DNA of 64,000 nucleotides from Gilliamella apicola (GTDB taxonomy: Bacteria > Pseudomonadota > Gammaproteobacteria > Enterobacterales > Orbaceae), in the NCBI RefSeq assembly GCF_000599985.1, contig NZ_CP007445.1, forward strand, positions 434,001 through 498,000, read 5' to 3'. Position 1 is the first letter of the stretch; each line of letters opens with the position of its first letter. Shown here one piece after another: positions 1,965-31,088 of the stretch. The notes beneath the pieces are model-generated. The model was not told where the DNA came from. It did no database searches and worked only from the letters and a program-made list of their open reading frames with translations. The translations under genes and the position numbers were made by a program.

Positions 1965-3497
1965 ATGATGAAATACTTTGCTTGGTCTATTTCGCTTTTA
2001 GTTGGCCTTATGAGTTTAGGTCAAGAAATGTTATGGTTTAGAGTAATTAGCTTTATGTTAGGAGGTGCTCCTTTCGCTTTTGCACTTGTATTGTTTTTCT
2101 TTCTACTAGGTATTGCTTTTGGAGCGAGTAAAGGTAAGACAATTTGCACCCGTTATTCTAATCTATTTTTTGCTGGTGGAATGGTTTTAATTTTTGCAGG
2201 TTTTATTGATATAGCTATTCCATTTATTATTTTACAAATATCTCAAAATCACGCTATAGAGTTGCCTTTATTTGTCTGTATTATATTAATATTTTTTGTG
2301 GCAGCTTTAAAAGCAATATTATTCCCAATTGTACACCATTTAGGTACGAATATTGCAAATGGTAAAGTAGGAGCATCTGTTTCAAAAGTCTATTTCTTTA
2401 ATATTATTGGTTCGACGCTTGGTAGTTTATTAATTGGTGGTATTCTCCTTGATTATGTCTCTATTTCATCAATGTTTATTTTAATAGGTATCGTTTGTAT
2501 TTTAATAGGTAGTTTGATGGCAGTAAAAAAGTCAGTAAGTTCTATGGCTACTATTGTTATGCTTGGTTGCGGTTGCTTTTATTTAGTAGATAAACATACT
2601 GATTATATTTTCAAAAATGTATATGGAAAAGATGAAATATCTGTGAATACTTATGTTGAAAATCGCTACGGTATAATTCATATTGTCAACGATGATAAAG
2701 AAGGCATGAAAAATATTGTATTAGGTAATAATATTTATGATGGTATGATAAATATAGACCCAGATAATGATATAAATGACCTGAATCGACTTTATTTATT
2801 AGCTGCAGTTCACCCAAATCCTAAAAAAGTACTCGTTATAGGTGTTAGCGCAGGTGCTTGGACTCGTGCTTTATCAAGTTTTCCGACTTTAGAAACCATA
2901 GATGCTATTGAAATCAATAAAGGCTATATAGATATAATTAAACAATATCCTGTTGTTTCACCAATATTAAATGATCCTAAAATTAATATTTATATTGATG
3001 ATGGCCGACGCTGGTTAAAACGAAATAGTAGTAAAAAGTATGATTTGATCATTATGAATACTACTTATCATTGGCGTTCAGGAACATCAAATTTATTATC
3101 CCAAGAGATGATGAAAATCGCGGAAAACTCATTAAATCCTGGTGGTATTTTGGCATTTAATAGTACCCGTTCACCTGATACATTGAAAACAGCACAATCT
3201 GTCTTTAAATATGCTTATTGGGGTAAACTTGGCTTTATTTATGCTTCTGATTCGATGATTAAAATCGATGAAGTGGTAGCAAAAGATCGTCTTGATAAGT
3301 TAATTTTAGACGGTAAACCTTTGTTTAATGAAGAATCCAAACAGCGTGAGAACGGAGCATACAAAGAAACTTTATCGACACAACTATTAACGTTAGATGA
3401 GTTTGAAAAGCTTAAAAATTTGGGACGAGATCTGGAAATCATTACTGATAGCAATATGATAACAGAATATAAATATGGACTTTTGGGAAAAAAATAA
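1965..3497 (+). CDS. Membrane protein with C-terminal spermidine-synthase-like domain
   Basis: The 510-residue protein has two parts. Residues 1 to about 205 form around six hydrophobic segments, and residues from about 215 onward resemble the Rossmann-fold methyltransferase/spermidine synthase domain. In the soluble part, VLVIGVSAGAWTRAL replaces the usual glycine-rich GGGDG-type nucleotide-binding loop, followed by an acidic EIN strand end and IDDGRRWL. The segment where true spermidine synthases carry the catalytic Asp (D-S-x-D-P) reads IIMNTTYHW, so aminopropyltransferase activity is doubtful. AGGA precedes two successive ATGs (1965 and 1968); either may be used. It is followed closely by a second membrane gene with a similar membrane module, so the two probably act together. 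Substrate is unknown. Confidence 0.75.
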   Translation: MMKYFAWSISLLVGLMSLGQEMLWFRVISFMLGGAPFAFALVLFFFLLGIAFGASKGKTICTRYSNLFFAGGMVLIFAGFIDIAIPFIILQISQNHAIELPLFVCIILIFFVAALKAILFPIVHHLGTNIANGKVGASVSKVYFFNIIGSTLGSLLIGGILLDYVSISSMFILIGIVCILIGSLMAVKKSVSSMATIVMLGCGCFYLVDKHTDYIFKNVYGKDEISVNTYVENRYGIIHIVNDDKEGMKNIVLGNNIYDGMINIDPDNDINDLNRLYLLAAVHPNPKKVLVIGVSAGAWTRALSSFPTLETIDAIEINKGYIDIIKQYPVVSPILNDPKINIYIDDGRRWLKRNSSKKYDLIIMNTTYHWRSGTSNLLSQEMMKIAENSLNPGGILAFNSTRSPDTLKTAQSVFKYAYWGKLGFIYASDSMIKIDEVVAKDRLDKLILDGKPLFNEESKQRENGAYKETLSTQLLTLDEFEKLKNLGRDLEIITDSNMITEYKYGLLGKK

Positions 3498-3507
3498 GGA
3501 AAACTTT

Positions 3508-4122
3508 ATGTTAAGCAAAAAACAATTATTTCTATTAAGTACTTTATTTTTTATTTCTGGAATGAGTGGTTTAACTTATCAAGTTGCTTGGCAACGAGCT
3601 CTTTATTCAGCTTTTGGTTCTGATGTAGAATCTGTAGCAATTATTGTATCAGCATTTATGTTGGGGCTAGGTTTTGGAGCCCTTGGAGGAGGTAAAATTG
3701 TTGATAAATACCCAAATAAAGCACTACAGTTTTTTTGTTTTAGTGAATTGGGAATTGGTTTATTTGGGGTAATTAGTTACCAACTTATTTTATTTACCGG
3801 TGATATTTTTGTTGTTTACAATATAATTATTATTGCAATTGTTAATTTCTTATTGGTGCTCATTCCTGCACTTTTGATGGGAGCTACACTTCCAATTTTA
3901 ATTACTTATATTGCGCAATTTTGGAAAAATATTGGTCAAACAACTGGACACCTTTATGCTATCAATACCTTTGGTGCTGCAATTGGAGCTGCTTTAACAG
4001 GATTCATTTTATTTAATTATTTTAATCTTCATATGGTAACGATATTTGCAGCTTTAGGTAATTTTATTGTTGCTACACTTGCTTATCTATTTTTTAATAA
4101 ATCACAAATAAAAAATAGTTGA
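3508..4122 (+). CDS. Six-helix membrane protein, partner of the spermidine-synthase-like protein
   Basis: This 204-residue protein is almost all membrane, about six helices. It shares a pattern with the N-terminal half of the preceding protein: a first helix with GMSGLTYQVAWQRAL (GLMSLGQEMLWFRVI in the neighbour), an F-x-LG-x-x-FGA segment and a late Y-x-x-N-x-x-G-x-x-x-G helix. The two membrane modules therefore look like paralogues. An in-frame ATG at 3475 lies inside the upstream gene; the start at 3508 is preferred because AAGGA sits 7 bases ahead of it. Relatives usually carry membrane and synthase parts in one chain. Function is unknown; transport of a small metabolite is only a guess. 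Confidence 0.7.
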   Translation: MLSKKQLFLLSTLFFISGMSGLTYQVAWQRALYSAFGSDVESVAIIVSAFMLGLGFGALGGGKIVDKYPNKALQFFCFSELGIGLFGVISYQLILFTGDIFVVYNIIIIAIVNFLLVLIPALLMGATLPILITYIAQFWKNIGQTTGHLYAINTFGAAIGAALTGFILFNYFNLHMVTIFAALGNFIVATLAYLFFNKSQIKNS

Positions 4123-5708: not shown

Positions 5709-7145
5709 CTAATTATCTATTACTCCCATTTGAATGTGGTATTTTTTTACCTTATATTGTAATGTAGTCCGTGAAATATTTAATAGTTTTGCAGCAGCAA
5801 TAATTTTACCGTTTGCTTGATTTAATGCATCAATAATAAGTTGTTTTTCATAATTTTCAACTTGTTCGGTTAAATTGTTATTGCTTGCGACTATGCTTGT
5901 ACTTGGTTTTTCAAATTTAGTTTCAGATTGATTTTCTGGGTAAGGGCTGTGAATGTCAAATAGTTCGTCGTCAAGGATAATTTGTTGCAATTCTCCCGGT
6001 TCATTTTGTAAGACTATACTACGTACGATTGCATTTTCAAGCATTCTTACATTTCCCGGCCAAGGAGCAGACATGAGTTGTTGTAATGCGTGTTCGCTAA
6101 TACCTGTTATCACAACATTTACATCGGTTTTATGTTTATCAATAAAGTATCGAGCTAATACAGGAATATCTTCTTTCCTTTCCCGAAGTGCTGGGAGTTT
6201 AATTAAACCTACATTTAATCGATAAAATAGGTCACTTCGCATTTTCCCGGTTTTTAATAACTCTGCAGGTGATTCATTCATGGCGGCAACAATTCTTACA
6301 TCGGCATGTTGCTCTTTATTGCCACCTAAAGGCCAGTAAGTCTTTTCTTGTAAAAATCTAAGTAATTTACTTTGCATATCAAGTGGCATAGCATTAAGTT
6401 CGTCAAGAAATAGTGTTCCCCCGTTAGCCAGTTCTAAATAACCAGGATGATTTTCAGCACCAGTAAACGCACCTTTCACTGTTCCAAATAAGGTACTTTC
6501 AATTAATGTGGTTGGTAAAGCACTACAATTTAACGAAATAAACGCATTATTACGACGATGACTCGTTTGATGTATTAAGTGAGCAAAAAGCTCTTTACCC
6601 GTTCCAGTTTCACCAACAATTAAAACTGGAACATCATTCGCCCCTAAAATATTTGTTTGATCAATAACCTTTTGCATTTTCTGCGAAACAAAAACAATTT
6701 CAGGTAATGGTTGGTCTTTATTTTGATATAACTTACTATTAAGTTTGAATACTTGATCTTGTAATTGTCTAACAGTTGATAAATTTCGTCCTATTTCGAT
6801 CGCACCAATAATATCTTTATGCTTGTTATAAAGTGGTACGGTGGTATGCATATAATCAACAAGTTTACCTACATGATTGTAGTAGCTTTGATAATTATCC
6901 TGATATTCCTTACCTTGTTGTAAAGCTTGTAACATGGTACTATCTTCTTTCCTTAAATTAGGATAAACTTTAAGCATTGGTTTGCCAATGGCTTGTTCCA
7001 TAGGGTAACCATCAAGTTCTGCACTTTCCCGATTATAATAAATATATTTACCTTCTTTATCGATAATAGCCATTGGCTGATGGATTAAATCAAAAAAATG
7101 TTTGAATATTTCTAATGATTGTAATAATTCAGGATCGATTGTCAT
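5709..7145 (-). CDS. PAS-domain sigma54-dependent transcriptional activator of the dok-like operon
   Basis: This 478-residue bacterial enhancer-binding protein has an N-terminal PAS domain (about 15-125) that may sense a ligand, a central AAA+ domain (Walker A GETGTGKELF, sigma54-contacting GAFTGA, Walker B region TLFLDELNAM), and a C-terminal Fis-type HTH (NISRTTLQYKVKKY). It has no receiver domain, so it is not a classical phosphorylated regulator; it resembles RocR-type activators of amino acid catabolism. It is divergent from the decarboxylase operon, which has a sigma54 promoter and two palindromes upstream, so it very likely activates that operon. A comparable regulator flanks the Salmonella D-ornithine/D-lysine decarboxylase cluster as I recall it. 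Confidence 0.9.
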   Translation of the reverse strand: MTIDPELLQSLEIFKHFFDLIHQPMAIIDKEGKYIYYNRESAELDGYPMEQAIGKPMLKVYPNLRKEDSTMLQALQQGKEYQDNYQSYYNHVGKLVDYMHTTVPLYNKHKDIIGAIEIGRNLSTVRQLQDQVFKLNSKLYQNKDQPLPEIVFVSQKMQKVIDQTNILGANDVPVLIVGETGTGKELFAHLIHQTSHRRNNAFISLNCSALPTTLIESTLFGTVKGAFTGAENHPGYLELANGGTLFLDELNAMPLDMQSKLLRFLQEKTYWPLGGNKEQHADVRIVAAMNESPAELLKTGKMRSDLFYRLNVGLIKLPALRERKEDIPVLARYFIDKHKTDVNVVITGISEHALQQLMSAPWPGNVRMLENAIVRSIVLQNEPGELQQIILDDELFDIHSPYPENQSETKFEKPSTSIVASNNNLTEQVENYEKQLIIDALNQANGKIIAAAKLLNISRTTLQYKVKKYHIQMGVIDN

Positions 7146-7224
7146 GATATTAGTACCTTTTTAATTTAGCTTATTAGCTAAGTTTAGCTTACGTTAATTT
7201 AAATACCTTTCAACCATTAATAAA

Positions 7225-7248
7225 TTTATGACAAATTTTTGTCATAAA
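7225..7248. promoter_or_regulatory. Palindrome 1, probable enhancer site for the sigma54 activator
   Basis: A perfect 11-bp inverted repeat (TTTATGACAAA / TTTGTCATAAA, 2-base spacer) lies in the divergent region. It is centred about 118 bp upstream of the expected start of the sigma54 transcript, a typical enhancer distance. Confidence 0.7.
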
Positions 7249-7258
7249 AACAGATTTT

Positions 7259-7281
7259 AAACAATATGACCAATATTGTTT
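7259..7281. promoter_or_regulatory. Palindrome 2, probable enhancer site for the sigma54 activator
   Basis: A second perfect inverted repeat (AAACAATAT / ATATTGTTT, 5-base spacer) is centred 33-34 bp from palindrome 1, about three helical turns, so the two sites face the same side of the DNA. Both contain ATGAC-N-AA. Confidence 0.65.
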
Positions 7282-7327
7282 TTGTAATAATTATTTATAA
7301 TAAATTGATTTTTAATAATTTATAAGT

Positions 7328-7343
7328 TGGCATGCTGATTGCA
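7328..7343 (+). promoter_or_regulatory. Sigma54 (-24/-12) promoter of the dok-like operon
   Basis: TGGCATGCTGATTGCA matches the sigma54 consensus TGGCACG-N4-TTGCA at all but one position with the exact GG-to-GC spacing (GG 7329-7330, GC 7341-7342). Transcription should begin near 7354, leaving a leader of about 58 bases before the decarboxylase ATG. Confidence 0.92.
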
Positions 7344-7411
7344 TTGCAAGTGAAAAGCCATTTTGCTTGTTTTCTTATGTACTTTTTATGTACTAATTAA
7401 CTGGAGGTCTT

Positions 7412-8809
7412 ATGTCCGACAAAATTATGTCAAATTATAACAAATTACGCACAGATCTTATAACCAAAGATCGCCGTTTCAGTGCTCAAAACGGTAAATT
7501 ATGTTTTGATGGCGTAAATTTAGAAGAATTAGCAAAGAAATACCCAACTCCTTTTTACGTATTTTCTGAAAAAGAAATTGACCGTAATATTAAGGAAATC
7601 AAAGATTCGTTTAAAGCTCATCCAAACACTAAGATTTTCTATGCATCAAAAACGTGTTCTGTAATGGGTGTGCTAAAAGCAATTAAAGATGCAGGTATTT
7701 ATGCTGAAGCGAATTCAATGTTTGAAGTGCGTAAATGTCTAGAGATCGGTTTTCCAGGTAGTCAAATTGTATTCAATGGTGTAGTTAAAAAACCGGTTGA
7801 TTTAGAATTTGCTATTCAAAATGATCTTTATATTATCAATGTCGATAGCTTGTATGAACTCGATATAATTGATGAAATTTCTCGTCGTCTCAAGAAAGTA
7901 GCGAATGTATGTGTGCGTGTTGAACCAAATGTACCATCAGCGACTCACGCAGAACTTGTTACGGCATATCATGCTAAATCTGGTATCGACTTAGAACAAG
8001 CGGAAGAAACTTGTCGTCGTATTCTTGAAATGCCATATGTACATTTACGTGGTTTACATATGCACGTAGGGGATCAAGTGCCAGAAGCAGAACCATTTGC
8101 TAAAGCAACGAAAGTTTTAGTCGATGAATCACGCCGTTTAGAAGAAGTCCTTGGTATTAAATTGGATTTAATTAACGTTGGTGGTGGTATTCCAGTTCCA
8201 TATAAATATGACGAAGAAAATGGTAATCCATTACAGGATAATATGTATGCAGGTATTACTGCACAAGATTTTGCTGATGCAGTAATTAGAGAAGTACATA
8301 AATGGCGTACCGATGTTGAGATTTGTATTGAACCTGGTCGTAAAGTAACAGGATCTGCCGCTGTATTATTAACAGAAGTTGCTTGTGAAAAACGTAAAAC
8401 TAATTACGATTTAGACGGAAACATTGAAGAACATGTTGAGTGGAAATTCGTTGATGCGGGTTATAGCGTGTTATCTGATAGCCAGCATTTTGATTGGTTC
8501 TTCTATGTTTATGATGCATCAAGAATTACCGAAGATCACGATCAATACATTAAACTTGCTGGACCTTTATGTGATGGTGGTGACTATTACCATGTTGGTG
8601 TAAAGGGTGAAGAGTTCTTATTACCAAAAGACACTCAAATTGGAGATATCATTGCATTCCTTGATGCTGGAGCTTATACCATCGAAAGTCAAACGGTTTA
8701 TAACAACCGTCCACGTACTGCCGTTGTTATGATCGATAAAGAAGGTAAAGATCGATTGATTCGCCGTGAGGACACTTACGAGGATATGGTTGGATACGAC
8801 GTGTATTAA
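7412..8809 (+). CDS. dokD: PLP-dependent fold-III amino acid decarboxylase, probable D-ornithine/D-lysine decarboxylase
   Basis: The 465-residue enzyme belongs to the diaminopimelate/ornithine decarboxylase (alanine-racemase fold) family. FYASKTCSV carries the PLP lysine (about K80), LHMHVGDQ and VGGGIPVPY line the cofactor phosphate, EPGRKVTG is the conserved arginine loop, and [10 protein letters not shown] holds the cross-subunit active-site Cys. It is first in an operon with a GadC-like antiporter, an ornithine-racemase-like enzyme and a LysP-like permease, under sigma54 control. This matches the Salmonella cluster around DokD (STM2360), so D-ornithine/D-lysine is the best substrate guess. 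A plain L-ornithine, L-lysine or diaminopimelate enzyme cannot be excluded. GGAGG lies 7 bases before the ATG. Confidence 0.78.
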
Positions 8810-8818
8810 TCATGAGTT

Positions 8819-8842
8819 ATCTGAGGCATTTTCGCCTCAGAT
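8819..8842 (+). terminator. Intercistronic hairpin between decarboxylase and antiporter genes
   Basis: A 9-bp stem (ATCTGAGGC / GCCTCAGAT) with a 6-base loop follows the decarboxylase stop. There is no T run after it, so it more likely shields or shapes the decarboxylase mRNA end than ends transcription. Confidence 0.55.
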
Positions 8843-8861
8843 ATTATAATGTGAGGTTATT

Positions 8862-10274
8862 ATGAGTGATTCTAAAGATTCAAGTTTACTTGGTATTAAA
8901 GACATTGTATTTATGAATGTCATTGCCATACTAAGTTTACGTCAAATTCCTAATGTTGCTCCTTACGGAGCGTCAGCAATGGTGCTTTGGCTTCTTGCTG
9001 CATTTTGTTTGTTTTTCCCTTTAGCGATGGTTTGTGGTGAACTTTCTACTGGTTGGCCAAAAGATGGAGGGATTTTTGTTTGGGTAAAAGAAGCGTTTGG
9101 TAAACGAGTTGGCTGGATAGTGGTCGTTTGTTTCCTATTCTCATGCGTTCTATTCTTCCCATTAATGTTACAATTTGGTTTTACTGCAATTGGTTACATG
9201 TTTAGTGCCGAATTAGCCCAAAATCAGGTGTTTATTGGTGTTGGTTCCATGGTGGTATTTTGGATTTTAACATTAATGAATATCAAAGGTATGAAATGGA
9301 CTAAAATTATAAACAGTGTTAGTGCATGGTTAGGGGTATTTATTCCCGCTGGTATCATTGTGTTATTGGCAATTGTCTGGTTGATGACAGGCCACCCAAT
9401 GGCAACTGATTATAGTCATGTTAGTGATTGGATTCCAGATTTAAGTAGCTGGGATACAATTGTATTTTTATCAAGTATGATGTTTGCTTTTGCTGGACTT
9501 GAAGTTGCACCAATGATTGCTGGACGTACTCGTGATCCACAACGTGACTTCCCTAAAGCAATGGCAGTATCTGCAATTGTTATCGTTGGTATCTATATGA
9601 TTGGTACTTGGGCAATTAATACCTTATTACCTGCTGCCGATACTGATATTGTTGCTGGTGTAATGCAAGCAATGGAGGCTGCTGCTAAAGAGCTACATAT
9701 GCCTTGGTTATTACCAGTAATGGCAATTTGTTTATTCTTTGGTGCGTTAGGTCAAATTAACTCATGGTTAGTTGGTCCTATCTATATGTTACAAGAAGCG
9801 TCAAAAGAAGATAATTTACTTGGTGAACGTATTGGTCGTTTACATCCTGTATATCAAACACCAGCATTTGCTTTAGTTATCCAAGCAATCATTGTGACTG
9901 TACTTTGCTTTTCAACGTTCGTATCACCAAGTATTGCTGCTGCATATTGGATGTTAACCGCATTAACAACCATTTGTTATTTTATTCCTTACTTAGTAAT
10001 GTTTATTGCCTATTATCGTTTACGTATTACTCAACCAGATGTACCGCGTAGCTTTAAGATCCCTGGTAAAGTATTACCTATTGTTTTACCTGGCTTAGGC
10101 TTTTTATCTACGCTATTTGCGGTGATCTTAGTGTTTATTCCACCAGCACAAATCGATATGGGTGGTTATGTTGAGTATATCGCTAAAATTGTTGGTGGCG
10201 CAGTGCTTGCAATTGTGTTAGCTGAATGGATATATCATCGCGCACAAAAACGTAATCGCTTGCAACAACAATAA
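8862..10274 (+). CDS. APC-family amino acid antiporter (GadC-like)
   Basis: A 470-residue inner-membrane protein with about twelve hydrophobic segments of the amino acid-polyamine-organocation family, closest in pattern to glutamate/GABA-type antiporters. The N-terminus has a GIKDIVFMNVIAI helix 1 and GELSTGWPKDGGIFVWV, the helix 2-3 signature of this subgroup. GTGAGGT precedes the ATG. Sitting between a decarboxylase and a racemase, it probably exchanges the amino acid substrate for the decarboxylation product (for example ornithine for putrescine, or lysine for cadaverine). The exact substrates are inferred from context. Confidence 0.82.
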   Translation: MSDSKDSSLLGIKDIVFMNVIAILSLRQIPNVAPYGASAMVLWLLAAFCLFFPLAMVCGELSTGWPKDGGIFVWVKEAFGKRVGWIVVVCFLFSCVLFFPLMLQFGFTAIGYMFSAELAQNQVFIGVGSMVVFWILTLMNIKGMKWTKIINSVSAWLGVFIPAGIIVLLAIVWLMTGHPMATDYSHVSDWIPDLSSWDTIVFLSSMMFAFAGLEVAPMIAGRTRDPQRDFPKAMAVSAIVIVGIYMIGTWAINTLLPAADTDIVAGVMQAMEAAAKELHMPWLLPVMAICLFFGALGQINSWLVGPIYMLQEASKEDNLLGERIGRLHPVYQTPAFALVIQAIIVTVLCFSTFVSPSIAAAYWMLTALTTICYFIPYLVMFIAYYRLRITQPDVPRSFKIPGKVLPIVLPGLGFLSTLFAVILVFIPPAQIDMGGYVEYIAKIVGGAVLAIVLAEWIYHRAQKRNRLQQQ

Positions 10275-10293
10275 GATATAGAGGAGTAAATGT

Positions 10294-11400
10294 ATGTACA
10301 AACCTGTATTGGAAATTGATTTAGGAAAATTAAAGGACAATGCACGTGTTGAAAAGGAGCTACTTGCTAAACACGGTATTGAAGTTATGGCAGTTAATAA
10401 AGTGTTTGATGGTTGTGTTGAAACTGCAAAAGCAGTTCTAGATGGCGGTATTGATGTTATTGCTGAATCAAGAACATATAATTTGAAAAAATTAAAAGAT
10501 GCTTTAGGGTGTAAAACTTGCCTGTTACGTAGTCCTTGTTTAAGCGAAATTAGTGAAGTTGTTAAATATGCAGATATTAGCTTAAATAGTGAAAAAGTGG
10601 TGATTCAAGCACTTTCAGAAGAAGCCGTCAAGCAACAAAAAGTTCACCAAGTTTTATTAATGGTTGATATGGGCGATTTACGCGAAGGTATTTGGTTTGA
10701 ACATATCGATGAAATTATTGATACGGTCAAACTTATTTTATCTTTACCGGGTGTTGAGCTTTATGGGCTTGGCACCAATTTTAACTGTTACGGTACTGTG
10801 CTACCAACAGTTAAAAATGGAGTAGACTTTTTAGAAATTGCGCGTAAAGTAGAAAAAGCTTGCAATATTAAAATACAATATTTATCAGCCGGTAATTGTA
10901 CTAGTTATCATTTATTAGACAAGGGTATCTGGCCTGAAGGACTAAATCACATCCGGATTGGTGGTTTACATGAGTTTGGTATTGAGTATGTAGATATGAA
11001 ATATCTTGATGAATTTCATCACTCAAATAAACCTGTAGAAAAAGCTTGTAGTGATATGTATAAATTATATGCACAAATTATTGAGCTTAATAGTAAACCA
11101 ACCGTTCCTGTTGGTGAGTTAGGGGTAGATGCTTTTCTAAATAGTAAAACTTTTGTCGATCATGGCGTACGTAAACGAGCGCTGCTTGCTTTTGGACGTC
11201 AAGATGTACCGGCTGAAAGCTGTGTGCCGATCGATGATAACATTACTGTACTTGGTCAAACCAGTGATCATACATTAGTCGATATTGAAGATGTGACTCA
11301 AACTCTTAAAGTCGGCGACATGATTGGGTTTGAGCTTGATTACACTGCCTTGCTAATGGCTTGTCAAACTAGTGGTGTAGAAAAACGGTTTATCTATTAA
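10294..11400 (+). CDS. Alanine/ornithine racemase-family PLP enzyme
   Basis: This 368-residue enzyme has the alanine-racemase N-terminal barrel fold. It starts PVLEIDLGKLKDNARV, with the PLP lysine in AVNKVFDG (about K36). The body resembles clostridial ornithine racemase (Orr) and related YhfX-type proteins more than Alr. GAGG lies before the ATG. Next to a presumed D-amino-acid decarboxylase, it would convert L-ornithine or L-lysine to the D-isomer, or the reverse. An alanine racemase role is less likely given its place in this operon. Confidence 0.8.
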   Translation: MYKPVLEIDLGKLKDNARVEKELLAKHGIEVMAVNKVFDGCVETAKAVLDGGIDVIAESRTYNLKKLKDALGCKTCLLRSPCLSEISEVVKYADISLNSEKVVIQALSEEAVKQQKVHQVLLMVDMGDLREGIWFEHIDEIIDTVKLILSLPGVELYGLGTNFNCYGTVLPTVKNGVDFLEIARKVEKACNIKIQYLSAGNCTSYHLLDKGIWPEGLNHIRIGGLHEFGIEYVDMKYLDEFHHSNKPVEKACSDMYKLYAQIIELNSKPTVPVGELGVDAFLNSKTFVDHGVRKRALLAFGRQDVPAESCVPIDDNITVLGQTSDHTLVDIEDVTQTLKVGDMIGFELDYTALLMACQTSGVEKRFIY

Positions 11401-11408
11401 TTTGTGTT

Positions 11409-11434
11409 AACTGCTGGGTAACCAGCAGTTTTTA
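11409..11434 (+). terminator. Intrinsic terminator/attenuator inside the dok-like operon
   Basis: A 9-bp GC-rich stem (AACTGCTGG / CCAGCAGTT, 4-base loop) runs directly into a five-T tail. It lies between the racemase stop and the last permease gene, so the permease is probably transcribed at a lower level by readthrough. Confidence 0.75.
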
Positions 11435-11456
11435 TCAATGATTAGGCGGTTTATAC

Positions 11457-12851
11457 ATGGCAACATCAGCATCACAACAAAGCCAAAATCCCAGTAATTT
11501 AAAAAAGAATCTTAAAAATCGTCATCTGCTAATGATTTCGTTAGGAGGATCGATTGGTACAGGTTTATTTATTGGTATCGCTGCACCATTAACAACAGTA
11601 GGACCGTTAGGGACTATCATCGCTTATTTTATGGCCGGTAGTATAATGTTGGCAACAATGTTATGCTTAGGTGAACTTTCTTGTGCATTTCCACATGCTG
11701 GCTCTTTTCAACATTATGCATTAATGTTTATTCCAAATCCGATTTGGAGTTATACCATTGGTTGGTTATATTGGCTTAGTTGGGTTCTGTCTATGGCAGC
11801 AGATTTAACAGCCGCTTCTATGATTGCCCACCAATTTTTTCCTGCTATTCCTATTTATCTTTTTAGCTTATTGATTTTAGTTGTTATAACTTCAGTTCAT
11901 TTAACTTCTGTGCGTGCTTTTGGTGAAAGTGAGTATTGGTTTTCAACCATTAAAGTGCTGGCAATTATTGCCTTTATTGGTATTGGCATTTATCTTCTGT
12001 ATCAACAATATACTCAAACCCATGTATTACCTACCTTTAAAACAGAACATGGCTGGTTTCCTAATGGTTTTTTATCGATTTTTGTATGTATGACCATTGT
12101 GACTTATTCATTTCAAGGTGTTGAATTAATTGGTAGTGCAGCAGGTGAAGCTGAGTCACCCCAAACAGTGTTACCTAAAATTATTACAGGTGTCGCATTT
12201 AGAATTATTCTGTTTTATGTATTAGCCATTGCCGTTTTAGCATTAGTTTACCCATATGGAACCGTGCATGATGAAATTAGCCCCTTTGTGTGGGTATTTA
12301 ATAAAGCTGGTATTACTTTTGCTTCTTACATGATGTTGTTTGTTATTTTTTGTGCTGCAATATCGGCAGCCAACTCGGCTATTTATGCAAGTTCACGTAT
12401 GTTATGGTCTATGGCACAGGATAATTTAGCACCTAAATATTTTTCAGATGTCAATAAAAGAGGTGTTCCTACTAAAGGTATCTTATTTATTGCAATTATT
12501 GCTTTAGTTTCATTATTTTCTAAATATATTGCAGCGGAAAAGCTTTATCTCTACTTAGTTGCAGGTACGGGGCAAGTAGGTTGTTTTGCGTGGATTATTA
12601 TAGCTTGGTGTCAGTATCAATTCCGTAAAGGAGTTAATAGTGGTAAATACTCTAAGGAGATGGTTAAATTTAAATCACCGTTATTTCCATGGTTAGCTGC
12701 TATTTCAATTATTGTTAATATTGTGATTATTGTTGGTGTATGGTTTGGTGAATCGGGGCATTTTATTTTATTGTCAGAAGTTGTCTTAATTATCATTATT
12801 CTAGCTTCTTATTATTACAATAAAAAACGCAATTTAATTCTCAATAACTAA
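11457..12851 (+). CDS. LysP-like amino acid permease
   Basis: A 464-residue APC-superfamily permease of the amino acid transporter (AAT) group, about twelve helices. After a polar, Ser/Asn-rich N-tail it reads LKNRHLLMISLGGSIGTGLFIG, the helix 1 signature with the unwound GSIGTGLF substrate site. Relatives include the lysine permease LysP. As the last gene of the decarboxylase/racemase operon it probably brings in ornithine or lysine by proton symport. A terminator-like hairpin lies just upstream and its ribosome site (AGGCGG) is about 12 bases from the ATG, suggesting lower expression. Confidence 0.8.
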   Translation: MATSASQQSQNPSNLKKNLKNRHLLMISLGGSIGTGLFIGIAAPLTTVGPLGTIIAYFMAGSIMLATMLCLGELSCAFPHAGSFQHYALMFIPNPIWSYTIGWLYWLSWVLSMAADLTAASMIAHQFFPAIPIYLFSLLILVVITSVHLTSVRAFGESEYWFSTIKVLAIIAFIGIGIYLLYQQYTQTHVLPTFKTEHGWFPNGFLSIFVCMTIVTYSFQGVELIGSAAGEAESPQTVLPKIITGVAFRIILFYVLAIAVLALVYPYGTVHDEISPFVWVFNKAGITFASYMMLFVIFCAAISAANSAIYASSRMLWSMAQDNLAPKYFSDVNKRGVPTKGILFIAIIALVSLFSKYIAAEKLYLYLVAGTGQVGCFAWIIIAWCQYQFRKGVNSGKYSKEMVKFKSPLFPWLAAISIIVNIVIIVGVWFGESGHFILLSEVVLIIIILASYYYNKKRNLILNN

Positions 12852-29593: not shown

Positions 29594-29609
29594 TGGCATC
29601 ATATTTGCA
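29594..29609 (+). promoter_or_regulatory. Sigma54 promoter of glnA
   Basis: TGGCATCATATTTGCA has the -24 GG (29595-29596) and -12 GC (29607-29608) at exact sigma54 spacing. The start would be near 29620, giving a leader of about 59 bases. It corresponds to glnAp2 of enterics. Confidence 0.92.
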
Positions 29610-29678: not shown

Positions 29679-31088
29679 ATGTCTATACAAAGAGTTTTAA
29701 CGCTAATTAAAGAAAATGATGTGGAATTTGTTGATTTACGTTTTACTGATACTAAAGGTAAAGAACAACATGTTACTATTCCAGTTAGTCAAATTGATGA
29801 TGATTTTTTTGAAGATGGTAAGATGTTTGATGGCTCATCAATTGCTGGTTGGAAAGGTATTAATGAATCAGATATGGTATTAATGCCAGATGCATCAAGC
29901 GCTGTTATTGATCCGTTTTTTGAAAGCAAGACACTTAATATACGTTGTGATGTTTTAGAACCAGCTACATTGCAAGGTTATGATCGTGATCCTCGTTCAA
30001 TAGCTAAACGAGCAGAAGATTTCTTAAAATCATCTGGTATTGCTGACACCGTCATTTTTGGACCAGAACCAGAGTTCTTTTTATTTGATGATGTACGTTT
30101 TGGTTCACCGATGTCCGGTAGCTTTGTTCATATCGATGATATTGAGGCTGCATGGAATTCAGGCACTAAATATGAAGAAGGTAACAAAGGGCACCGTCCT
30201 GGAGTGAAAGGTGGTTATTTTCCACTTCCACCAGTTGATTCATCACAAGATATTCGTTCTGAAATGTGCTTAATTATGGAACAACTTGGTTTAATCGTTG
30301 AAGCACATCACCATGAAGTAGCTACTGCTGGTCAAAACGAAATTGCTTGTCGTTTTAACACATTAACTAAAAAAGCTGATGAAGTTCAAATTTATAAATA
30401 CGTTGTTCAAAATGTTGCTCACGCTTATGGTAAGACAGCAACGTTTATGCCAAAACCAATATTTGGTGATAATGGTTCGGGTATGCACTGTCACCAATCA
30501 CTAGCTAAAGATGGCGTAAATCTTTTTGCGGGTGATAAATATGCAGGTCTTTCCGAAATGGCACTGTTTTATATTGGTGGGATTATTAAACATGCTAAAG
30601 CAATCAATGCATTTACTAACCCAGCCACTAACTCTTATAAACGTTTAGTACCAGGTTATGAAGCCCCAGTTATGCTTGCTTATTCAGCGCGTAACCGTTC
30701 AGCCTCAATTCGTATCCCTGTTGTTACAAGCCCTAAAGCTCGTCGCATTGAAGTTCGTTTCCCAGATCCAGCAGCGAATCCATACTTAGCATTTGCAGCA
30801 CAGTTAATGGCTGGTTTAGATGGTATTATCAATAAAATTCATCCTGGTGATGCAATGGATAAGAATTTATATGATTTACCTCCAGAAGAATCTAAATTAA
30901 TTCCACAAGTAGCGGGCTCACTTGAAGAGGCATTACAAGCATTAAATTCCGATCGTGAATTCTTAACTCGTGGTAACGTATTTACTAATGATACCATTGA
31001 TGCTTATATCGATTTAAAACGTCAAGATGTTGATCGTGTTCGTATGACGCCACATCCAGTTGAATTCGAATTGTACTATAGTCTATAA
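29679..31088 (+). CDS. glnA: Glutamine synthetase
   Basis: GlnA joins ammonia and glutamate to glutamine; it is a type I dodecamer. The 469-residue enzyme shows [39 protein letters not shown] (metal site), [11 protein letters not shown] and the adenylylation site [10 protein letters not shown] with its tyrosine, so activity is probably controlled by GlnE. GGAG is the ribosome site. With GltB at the left edge the cell has the GS-GOGAT route. Confidence 0.99.

Follow-up and report, generated by a model that had tools for sequence, protein, structure and literature searches.

The 64-kb window of Gilliamella apicola analyzed here carries, at positions 5709–12851, five open reading frames (ORFs) which very probably constitute the Gilliamella counterpart of the dok operon known from Salmonella and work as proposed below, most likely in support of pH or the proton gradient. 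As judged by comparative sequence analysis, the dok operon in the window is real, complete, and conserved. The earlier note on this DNA had described a sigma54 activator gene divergent from genes for a decarboxylase, an antiporter, a racemase, and a permease, and had likened them to the Salmonella dok cluster. The ORF list, together with the profile and domain matches, confirmed the five ORFs and their families, and the likeness holds for all five genes in order.

The counterpart in Salmonella is STM2361/STM2360–2356 (dok), where S. diarizonae and S. arizonae have these five genes in an identical order. The identity between the window and Salmonella is 84% for DokD, 82% for the antiporter (S. 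diarizonae copy), 76–77% for the racemase, 59–60% for the permease, and 55–56% for the activator, and the Salmonella loci share the −24/−12 promoter core and the predicted upstream activating sequence (UAS) at nearly equal spacing. The host lineage differs, the window being from Orbaceae of the bee gut. The Salmonella operon as tabulated in PMC3844500 extends to ubiX (STM2356), whereas a MarC-type gene on the opposite strand lies downstream of dok in the window; judging from the S. enterica diarizonae locus (L027), STM2357 is presumably the permease of the Salmonella operon.

The decarboxylase passes the curated DokD equivalog model NF052544 with 889.9 bits against a cut-off of 700, and its residues 1–465 match six distinct PDB sequences, 6n2h among them; five are entered as D-ornithine/D-lysine decarboxylase and the sixth, 10li, as diaminopimelate decarboxylase. 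The DokD of L027 is identical to 6n2h at 464 of 465 positions. A tree was built from the window protein, 22 of 52 loci fetched by a pattern scan rather than a full census, six LysA proteins, and one SpeA-like protein; it is midpoint-rooted, with 8 of 26 inner branches open and a very long SpeA-like row. In this tree, the 23 DokD-type rows stand apart from LysA with a support of 100/99, so that the phylogeny proposed as a check in the earlier note gives no grouping of the decarboxylase with LysA. The motif CDGGD in the DokD-type rows, compared to CESSD in the six LysA rows, separates the two groups, and the window protein shows neither CESSD nor a place in the LysA clade. Although the LysA model only just reaches its cut-off on the window protein (298.0 bits against 297.9), it is scarcely credible that the enzyme is a misnamed second LysA or an L-ornithine decarboxylase, and this identity was rejected in view of the DokD score, the tree, and the separate LysA of the same genome (G000:C1:926887-928107), which is 29.5% identical to the window DokD. 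By orthology, the window DokD is very likely specific for D-substrates.

Diaminopimelate decarboxylases act on the D-centre of meso-diaminopimelate, and the racemase in the operon makes sense because an enzyme derived from the diaminopimelate decarboxylase fold needs a D-substrate. The residues C387 and Y430 are present in the window protein and in all 22 further DokD-type rows of the alignment. In the available text of PMC13294871, the C387A variant of Salmonella DokD retains approximately 1% of the activity and D-arginine is turned over very slowly, and the title of a paper cited there states that Y430F alters the stereospecificity. The dN/dS values of the five dok genes were 0.015–0.071 in four pairs; the values are rough, since many dS in the five pairs compared in total exceeded 1.

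The product of dokR contains PAS, Sigma54_activat, and HTH_8 domains with the Walker A and GAFTGA motifs, as in bacterial enhancer-binding proteins, and its best curated match is PrdR (NF041552) at 361.9 bits, below the cut-off of 795. The genome encodes rpoN. A −24/−12 element of the form TGGCAT-N5-TTGCA lies upstream of dokD (Table 1); it is one of three consensus matches in the window, compared to 0.29 expected, and when the 300 bp preceding dokD were shuffled 100 times, no shuffle equalled it. The other two exact matches are located at 29594–29609 (+) and 30437–30452 (−). From the Salmonella promoter TGGCATGCCTTTTGCTTT, as printed in PMC3844500, the window element differs only in the spacer and the tail. 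The element is exact in all 25 Gilliamella loci with an adjacent dokR (window included), in 7 of 9 Enterobacterales loci (two mismatches in L021, one in L023), and in both Syntrophomonadaceae. Among the loci with dokR placed elsewhere, L034 is exact, and L040 and L032 show one and two mismatches, respectively; three mismatches were found in L030, where the stretch contains no dokR, and three to four in the ten dokD-only loci with enough upstream sequence.

The intergenic alignments of Gilliamella (A1, 18 rows) and Enterobacterales (A2, 9 rows) share an inverted repeat, TGACRAATTTTYGTCR, whose start precedes that of the −24 element by 96–99 bp in all 34 dokR-adjacent Gilliamella and Enterobacterales loci and to which DokR is predicted to bind. 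It is preserved with zero to one mismatch in 29 of them (23/25 Gilliamella, 6/9 Enterobacterales), and the seven Gilliamella loci outside A1 (L003, L004, L006, L011, L014, L017, and L052) also match at this level. With up to one mismatch allowed, the dok site is the sole match in its own genome. The 16 genomes searched contain ten exact matches, eight of which lie at dok (own genome, L002, L008, L015, L021, L022, L027, and L029), while two lie elsewhere, in G001 and in G049, the latter elsewhere in the genome of L022. A possible second half-site (Table 1) is degenerate in the window, where the upstream stretch holds a better match elsewhere.

Gilliamella sp. Choc4-2 (L020) shows a natural loss of the regulatory elements. 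In the stretch that leads from the HI0933-like gene to dokD (L020:7388-8000), this strain retains an approximately 200-bp relic, which matches the first part of dokR (window 6938–7145), and a diverged intergenic region. The best −24/−12 match there has three mismatches, and 73 of 100 shuffles are as good; no recognizable sigma54 promoter is left. The best UAS match also has three mismatches (4 of 100 shuffles as good), and no UAS match with up to one mismatch occurs anywhere in this genome. The genes dokD, gadC, orr, and the permease gene remain open, and their dN/dS values relative to the window are 0.040, 0.027, 0.057, and 0.086, respectively, with dS near or above 1. Because L020 lost both elements together yet keeps the enzymes, dokR and the sigma54 promoter appear to be tied to each other, in a joint loss known from one strain of one species. 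The sigma54 control claimed in the earlier note is supported by the promoter, the conserved upstream site, and this joint loss, together with the rpoN dependence of the Salmonella STM2360–56 operon, which was measured with a different, promiscuous activator according to PMC3844500.

The assignments of the other three products are less specific. The racemase scores 367.6 bits with the Orr model NF040742, whose cut-off is 480, and is filed as Orr-type; its K36 is invariant in an 11-sequence alignment. The racemase sequence alone gave no match in the PDB at E up to 0.001, and the alignment gave weak matches to fold-III racemases, the best of which is the lysine racemase 4dza (E = 0.0012). In Salmonella, the operon's racemase, STM2358, reportedly has ornithine racemase activity. 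With three curated GadC models, the antiporter reaches 324.5 of 650 bits (the Gln/GABA model), 297.4 of 640, and 192.8 of 673.5, and its nearest solved structure is GadC. The permease passed no curated permease model and reaches 301.7 of 735 bits with PRK10836, which we take to be the LysP model. The lysine-binding residues of LysP in the permease alignment were dropped as evidence, as they are widely shared across that permease family. Because no matched curated model reaches its cut-off, the terms GadC-like and LysP-like of the earlier note are superfamily labels; the kinds of protein it named stand, and the racemase stays below the Orr level.

In the proposed mechanism, DokR would bind the inverted repeat approximately 98 bp upstream of −24 and drive the transcription of dokD, the antiporter gene, orr, and the permease gene. 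The permease would import L-ornithine or L-lysine, Orr would convert it into the D-form, as its orthology suggests, and DokD would decarboxylate the D-form to putrescine or cadaverine, a step for which orthology provides strong support. The antiporter would then exchange the diamine for more substrate. Because each turn of this cycle would consume one proton, the purpose is most likely the support of pH or the proton gradient, and the diamine would be a by-product or a local product.

Several points weigh against this interpretation. The scores of the racemase and both transporters lie below the curated cut-offs. The residues C387 and Y430 also occur in the six LysA rows (one from the own genome, five from other Orbaceae) and, because LysA carries both, they indicate an intact site in the aligned sequences and not D-specificity. 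The UAS pattern was derived from alignments that include most of the loci counted; it shows two to three mismatches in L018, L024, L025, L026, and L028, and it is not recognizable in the two Syntrophomonadaceae (five and six mismatches). With up to one mismatch, the 16 genomes give 19 matches compared to 36 for a backward control pattern, of which 11 fall in G001. Because the control pattern gives more matches, the bare genome-wide count is no evidence, and the support for the UAS lies in its position and conservation. Moreover, G001, with one of the exact matches, belongs to another genus and lacks DokD. The hairpin before the permease gene may uncouple this gene from the operon, and the pH purpose rests on analogy. 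In Salmonella, the drive of the operon by STM2361 is given as a prediction in PMC3844500, the rpoN work there having used another activator, and the available text of a 2016 review (PMC4987338) gives the site and the signal of STM2361 as not known.

The purpose might instead be the supply of diamine to the cell by the same enzymes, the DokD route being the genus's own source of putrescine and cadaverine, although we consider this unlikely. The usual decarboxylases were surveyed in 44 genomes of the family, 35 of which belong to the genus of the window (five of the 35 being only 59–86% complete). No OKR decarboxylase exceeds the cut-off in the 35 genomes, own genome included; in the family, 3 of 44 genomes, all of genus g3, hold one, and 15 further matches of 17–21 bits lie below the cut-off. 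The PF02784 proteins of the window genus are LysA and DokD only, and the other genera have one additional, SpeA-like protein (G042). PvlArgDC and SpeD were each found in 0 of 44 genomes. No SpeA-, SpeC/SpeF-, CadA-, or pyruvoyl-type decarboxylase was thus found, and no diamine-forming decarboxylase beyond DokD was recognized in the genus within the families searched, further decarboxylase families not having been searched. Because the usual L-decarboxylases are missing, all self-made diamine in Gilliamella could pass through a D-amino acid (Orr, then DokD), a tentative reading that we hold at somewhat less than even confidence. If it is true, the D-route, elsewhere accessory, is the only putrescine and cadaverine source of the genus's own in the bee gut.

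Against a supply for the cell, seven genomes that are at least 91% complete (G028, G029, G001, G002, G040, G041, and G043) have neither any of the searched routes nor DokD, which indicates that diamine synthesis by these routes is dispensable in the family. Since SpeD is missing in all 44 genomes, no SpeD-type spermidine route is available to the diamine made by DokD, and PotA-type uptake is encoded, with PotA above the cut-off in the own genome. Export is the better fit to an inducible sigma54 operon that includes an antiporter, and a paper of 2020 in J Biol Chem (PMC7857480) considers, in its discussion, D-ornithine decarboxylase unlikely to serve spermidine or homospermidine metabolism.

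An operon that scavenges or removes D-lysine and D-ornithine of peptidoglycan or diet, with Orr working mainly from D to L and DokD draining the excess, appears distinctly improbable. A racemase can run in both directions, and Salmonella DokD acts on free D-amino acids, as described in PMC13294871, but among solved structures a lysine-specific permease and GadC come nearest to the two transporters. Curated transporter models for L- and for D-substrates alike stay below their cut-offs, which is neutral for this alternative.

As for the fate of the diamine, gut cadaverine was correlated with learning success in gnotobiotic bees, as reported in the available text of PMC13214017. There, the drop in cadaverine was significant only without Bombilactobacillus and not without Gilliamella, whose colonization success was variable. 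The missing drop without Gilliamella speaks against this genus as the main source of gut cadaverine under those conditions. For the suggestion that polyamine is made for the host or community, no support was found here.

Compared to the CadBA, SpeF-PotE, and AdiA-AdiC systems, the likeness would lie in basic amino acid decarboxylation coupled to exchange; the window differs in having a fold-III enzyme acting on D-substrates after a racemase and no OKR decarboxylase. With GadBC, it shares a GadC-type APC antiporter, yet one below every GadC cut-off; the GadBC decarboxylase is unrelated to DokD. Orr and PrdR, the best curated matches of the racemase and the activator, belong to clostridial ornithine and D-proline fermentation, unlike the pathway in the window. 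No published account of a Gilliamella dok cluster was found in a literature search with few subscription journals. The papers found on natural D-ornithine/D-lysine decarboxylation, as far as their available text goes, concern the Salmonella enzyme, and an engineered Thermotoga variant also exists. The operon type is already known, and the NCBIfam DokD model already allows the automatic naming of dokD; the main additions are the predicted enhancer and the natural loss of regulation. Because no competing L-decarboxylase was found in the gut symbiont Gilliamella, its predicted enhancer is defined, and activator and promoter are missing from a sister species, the purpose and control of dok are directly testable in a bee symbiont.

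Table 1. Features of the dok locus, in window positions, and the evidence for each.
Feature	Positions	Strand	Evidence
dokR, PAS-AAA+-Fis-type sigma54 activator, counterpart of Salmonella STM2361	5709..7145	-	domains, synteny
Predicted DokR enhancer (UAS), 24-bp inverted repeat holding TGACAAATTTTTGTCA at 7229-7244	7225..7248	.	alignments
Possible second half-site, window ACAATATGACCAA, relatives' consensus ACTNANTGACNAA	7261..7273	.	alignments A1, A2
sigma54 promoter -24/-12, TGGCATGCTGATTGCA	7328..7343	+	consensus match, alignments, Salmonella STM2360 promoter TGGCATGCCTTTTGCTTT
Likely ribosome binding site GGAGG of dokD	7403..7407	+	invariant in A1
dokD, pyridoxal phosphate-dependent D-ornithine/D-lysine decarboxylase by orthology	7412..8809	+	NF052544, PDB matches, CDGGD, tree
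Intercistronic RNA hairpin dokD-gadC	8818..8843	+	covariation in aligned rows
GadC-type APC transporter, predicted diamine/amino acid exchanger	8862..10274	+	profile, domain, and structure matches
orr, fold-III amino acid racemase, predicted ornithine/lysine racemase	10294..11400	+	NF040742 below cut-off, K36
Terminator-like hairpin orr-permease	11409..11430	+	aligned rows; absent from terminator-scan list
Amino acid permease	11457..12851	+	nearest solved structure: lysine-specific permease 9eyd

Both intercistronic hairpins in Table 1 are kept in all 13 aligned Gilliamella rows (12 distinct). In the dokD-gadC hairpin, 120 of 120 cells are paired and 2 of 10 pairs are changed on both sides, which 8 of 500 shuffles reach, so that the covariation support is moderate. 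For the orr-permease hairpin it is weak: 99.1% of 107 cells are paired, 1 of 9 pairs is changed on both sides, which 240 of 500 shuffles reach, and a slide by three columns gives an equal covariation score. The hairpins could raise the abundance of dokD over gadC and partly uncouple the permease gene. The numbers of terminator-like sites (7 compared to 4.4 expected) and sigma70-type sites (29 compared to 32.5 expected) in the cluster are uninformative.

All five genes occur in the same order in 34 of the 52 loci, namely 23 from Gilliamella and 11 others (Mixta, Citrobacter, two Kluyvera, two Edwardsiella, two Salmonella, Yokenella, and two Syntrophomonadaceae). Three loci (two Sutterella, Photobacterium) have all five genes with dokR at the 3′ side, one is the Gilliamella locus without dokR (L020), L046 and L052 are halves of one split metagenome-assembled genome, L030 has the order gadC-orr-dokD, and in 11 loci dokD alone was found within the available stretch. 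In the Kluyvera locus L033 (CP022114), dokD, gadC, orr, and the permease gene match only piecewise, as with frameshifts, which looks like sequencing error. A partial scan of nine ORFs beside the dokD-like genes of L031, L038, and L042 showed that in L031:7164-9398 (Brenneria) and L042:8010-10291 (Aquitalea) the gene adjoins one for a solute-binding protein of family 3 (PF00497), and neither dokR nor the antiporter, racemase, or permease gave a match in these two stretches; this arrangement is possibly a different D-amino acid system.

In the genus of the window, DokD exceeds the cut-off in 31 of 35 genomes; it is split over two contigs in G032, G033 (59% complete) gave no match, and G028 and G029 hold LysA only. 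No match above the cut-off was found in nine genomes of four other genera. The genome of the window is one contig of 3.14 Mb. The order gltB, HI0933-like gene, dok, and marC is found in all 24 Gilliamella loci unsplit at dok (23 with dokR, one without), and rplS-trmD-rimM follow in 23 of them, the record of L016 ending earlier. Of six genomes without dok that were examined at this site (G001, G028, G029, G037, G042, and G043), one, G037 of another genus, has the HI0933-like gene approximately 130 bp from rplS (between match ends), next to rplS-trmD-rimM and with no dok, which makes this stretch (L101:7261-10265) a candidate empty site. The HI0933-like gene lies approximately 5.7 kb from rplS in G042 and approximately 4.8 kb from marC in G028. 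Within the stretch of approximately 19 kb, rplS was not found in G001, G028, G029, and G043, and neither was marC in G001, G029, and G043. The DokD tree departs from the species order, with Photobacterium, Veillonellaceae, Sutterella, Syntrophomonadaceae, and Desulfobacterium placed with Gilliamella. The GC content at third codon positions is 22.8–25.5 for the four plus-strand dok genes compared to 24.4 for the HI0933-like gene and 29.9 for trmD, so that a recent import of dok is not shown.

Two extra genes precede the HI0933-like gene in 6 of the 24 Gilliamella loci. Positions 1965–4122 of the window, which lie between gltB and the HI0933-like gene, encode a membrane protein with a spermine synthase-type domain (PF01564) and an MFS-type partner; of 25 further Gilliamella loci that include the region, 6 have this pair there. 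Because the genome lacks SpeD, the PF01564 protein is probably not a classical spermidine synthase. The PF01564 search of the own genome gave two proteins above the family cut-off, with 59.1 and 25 bits.

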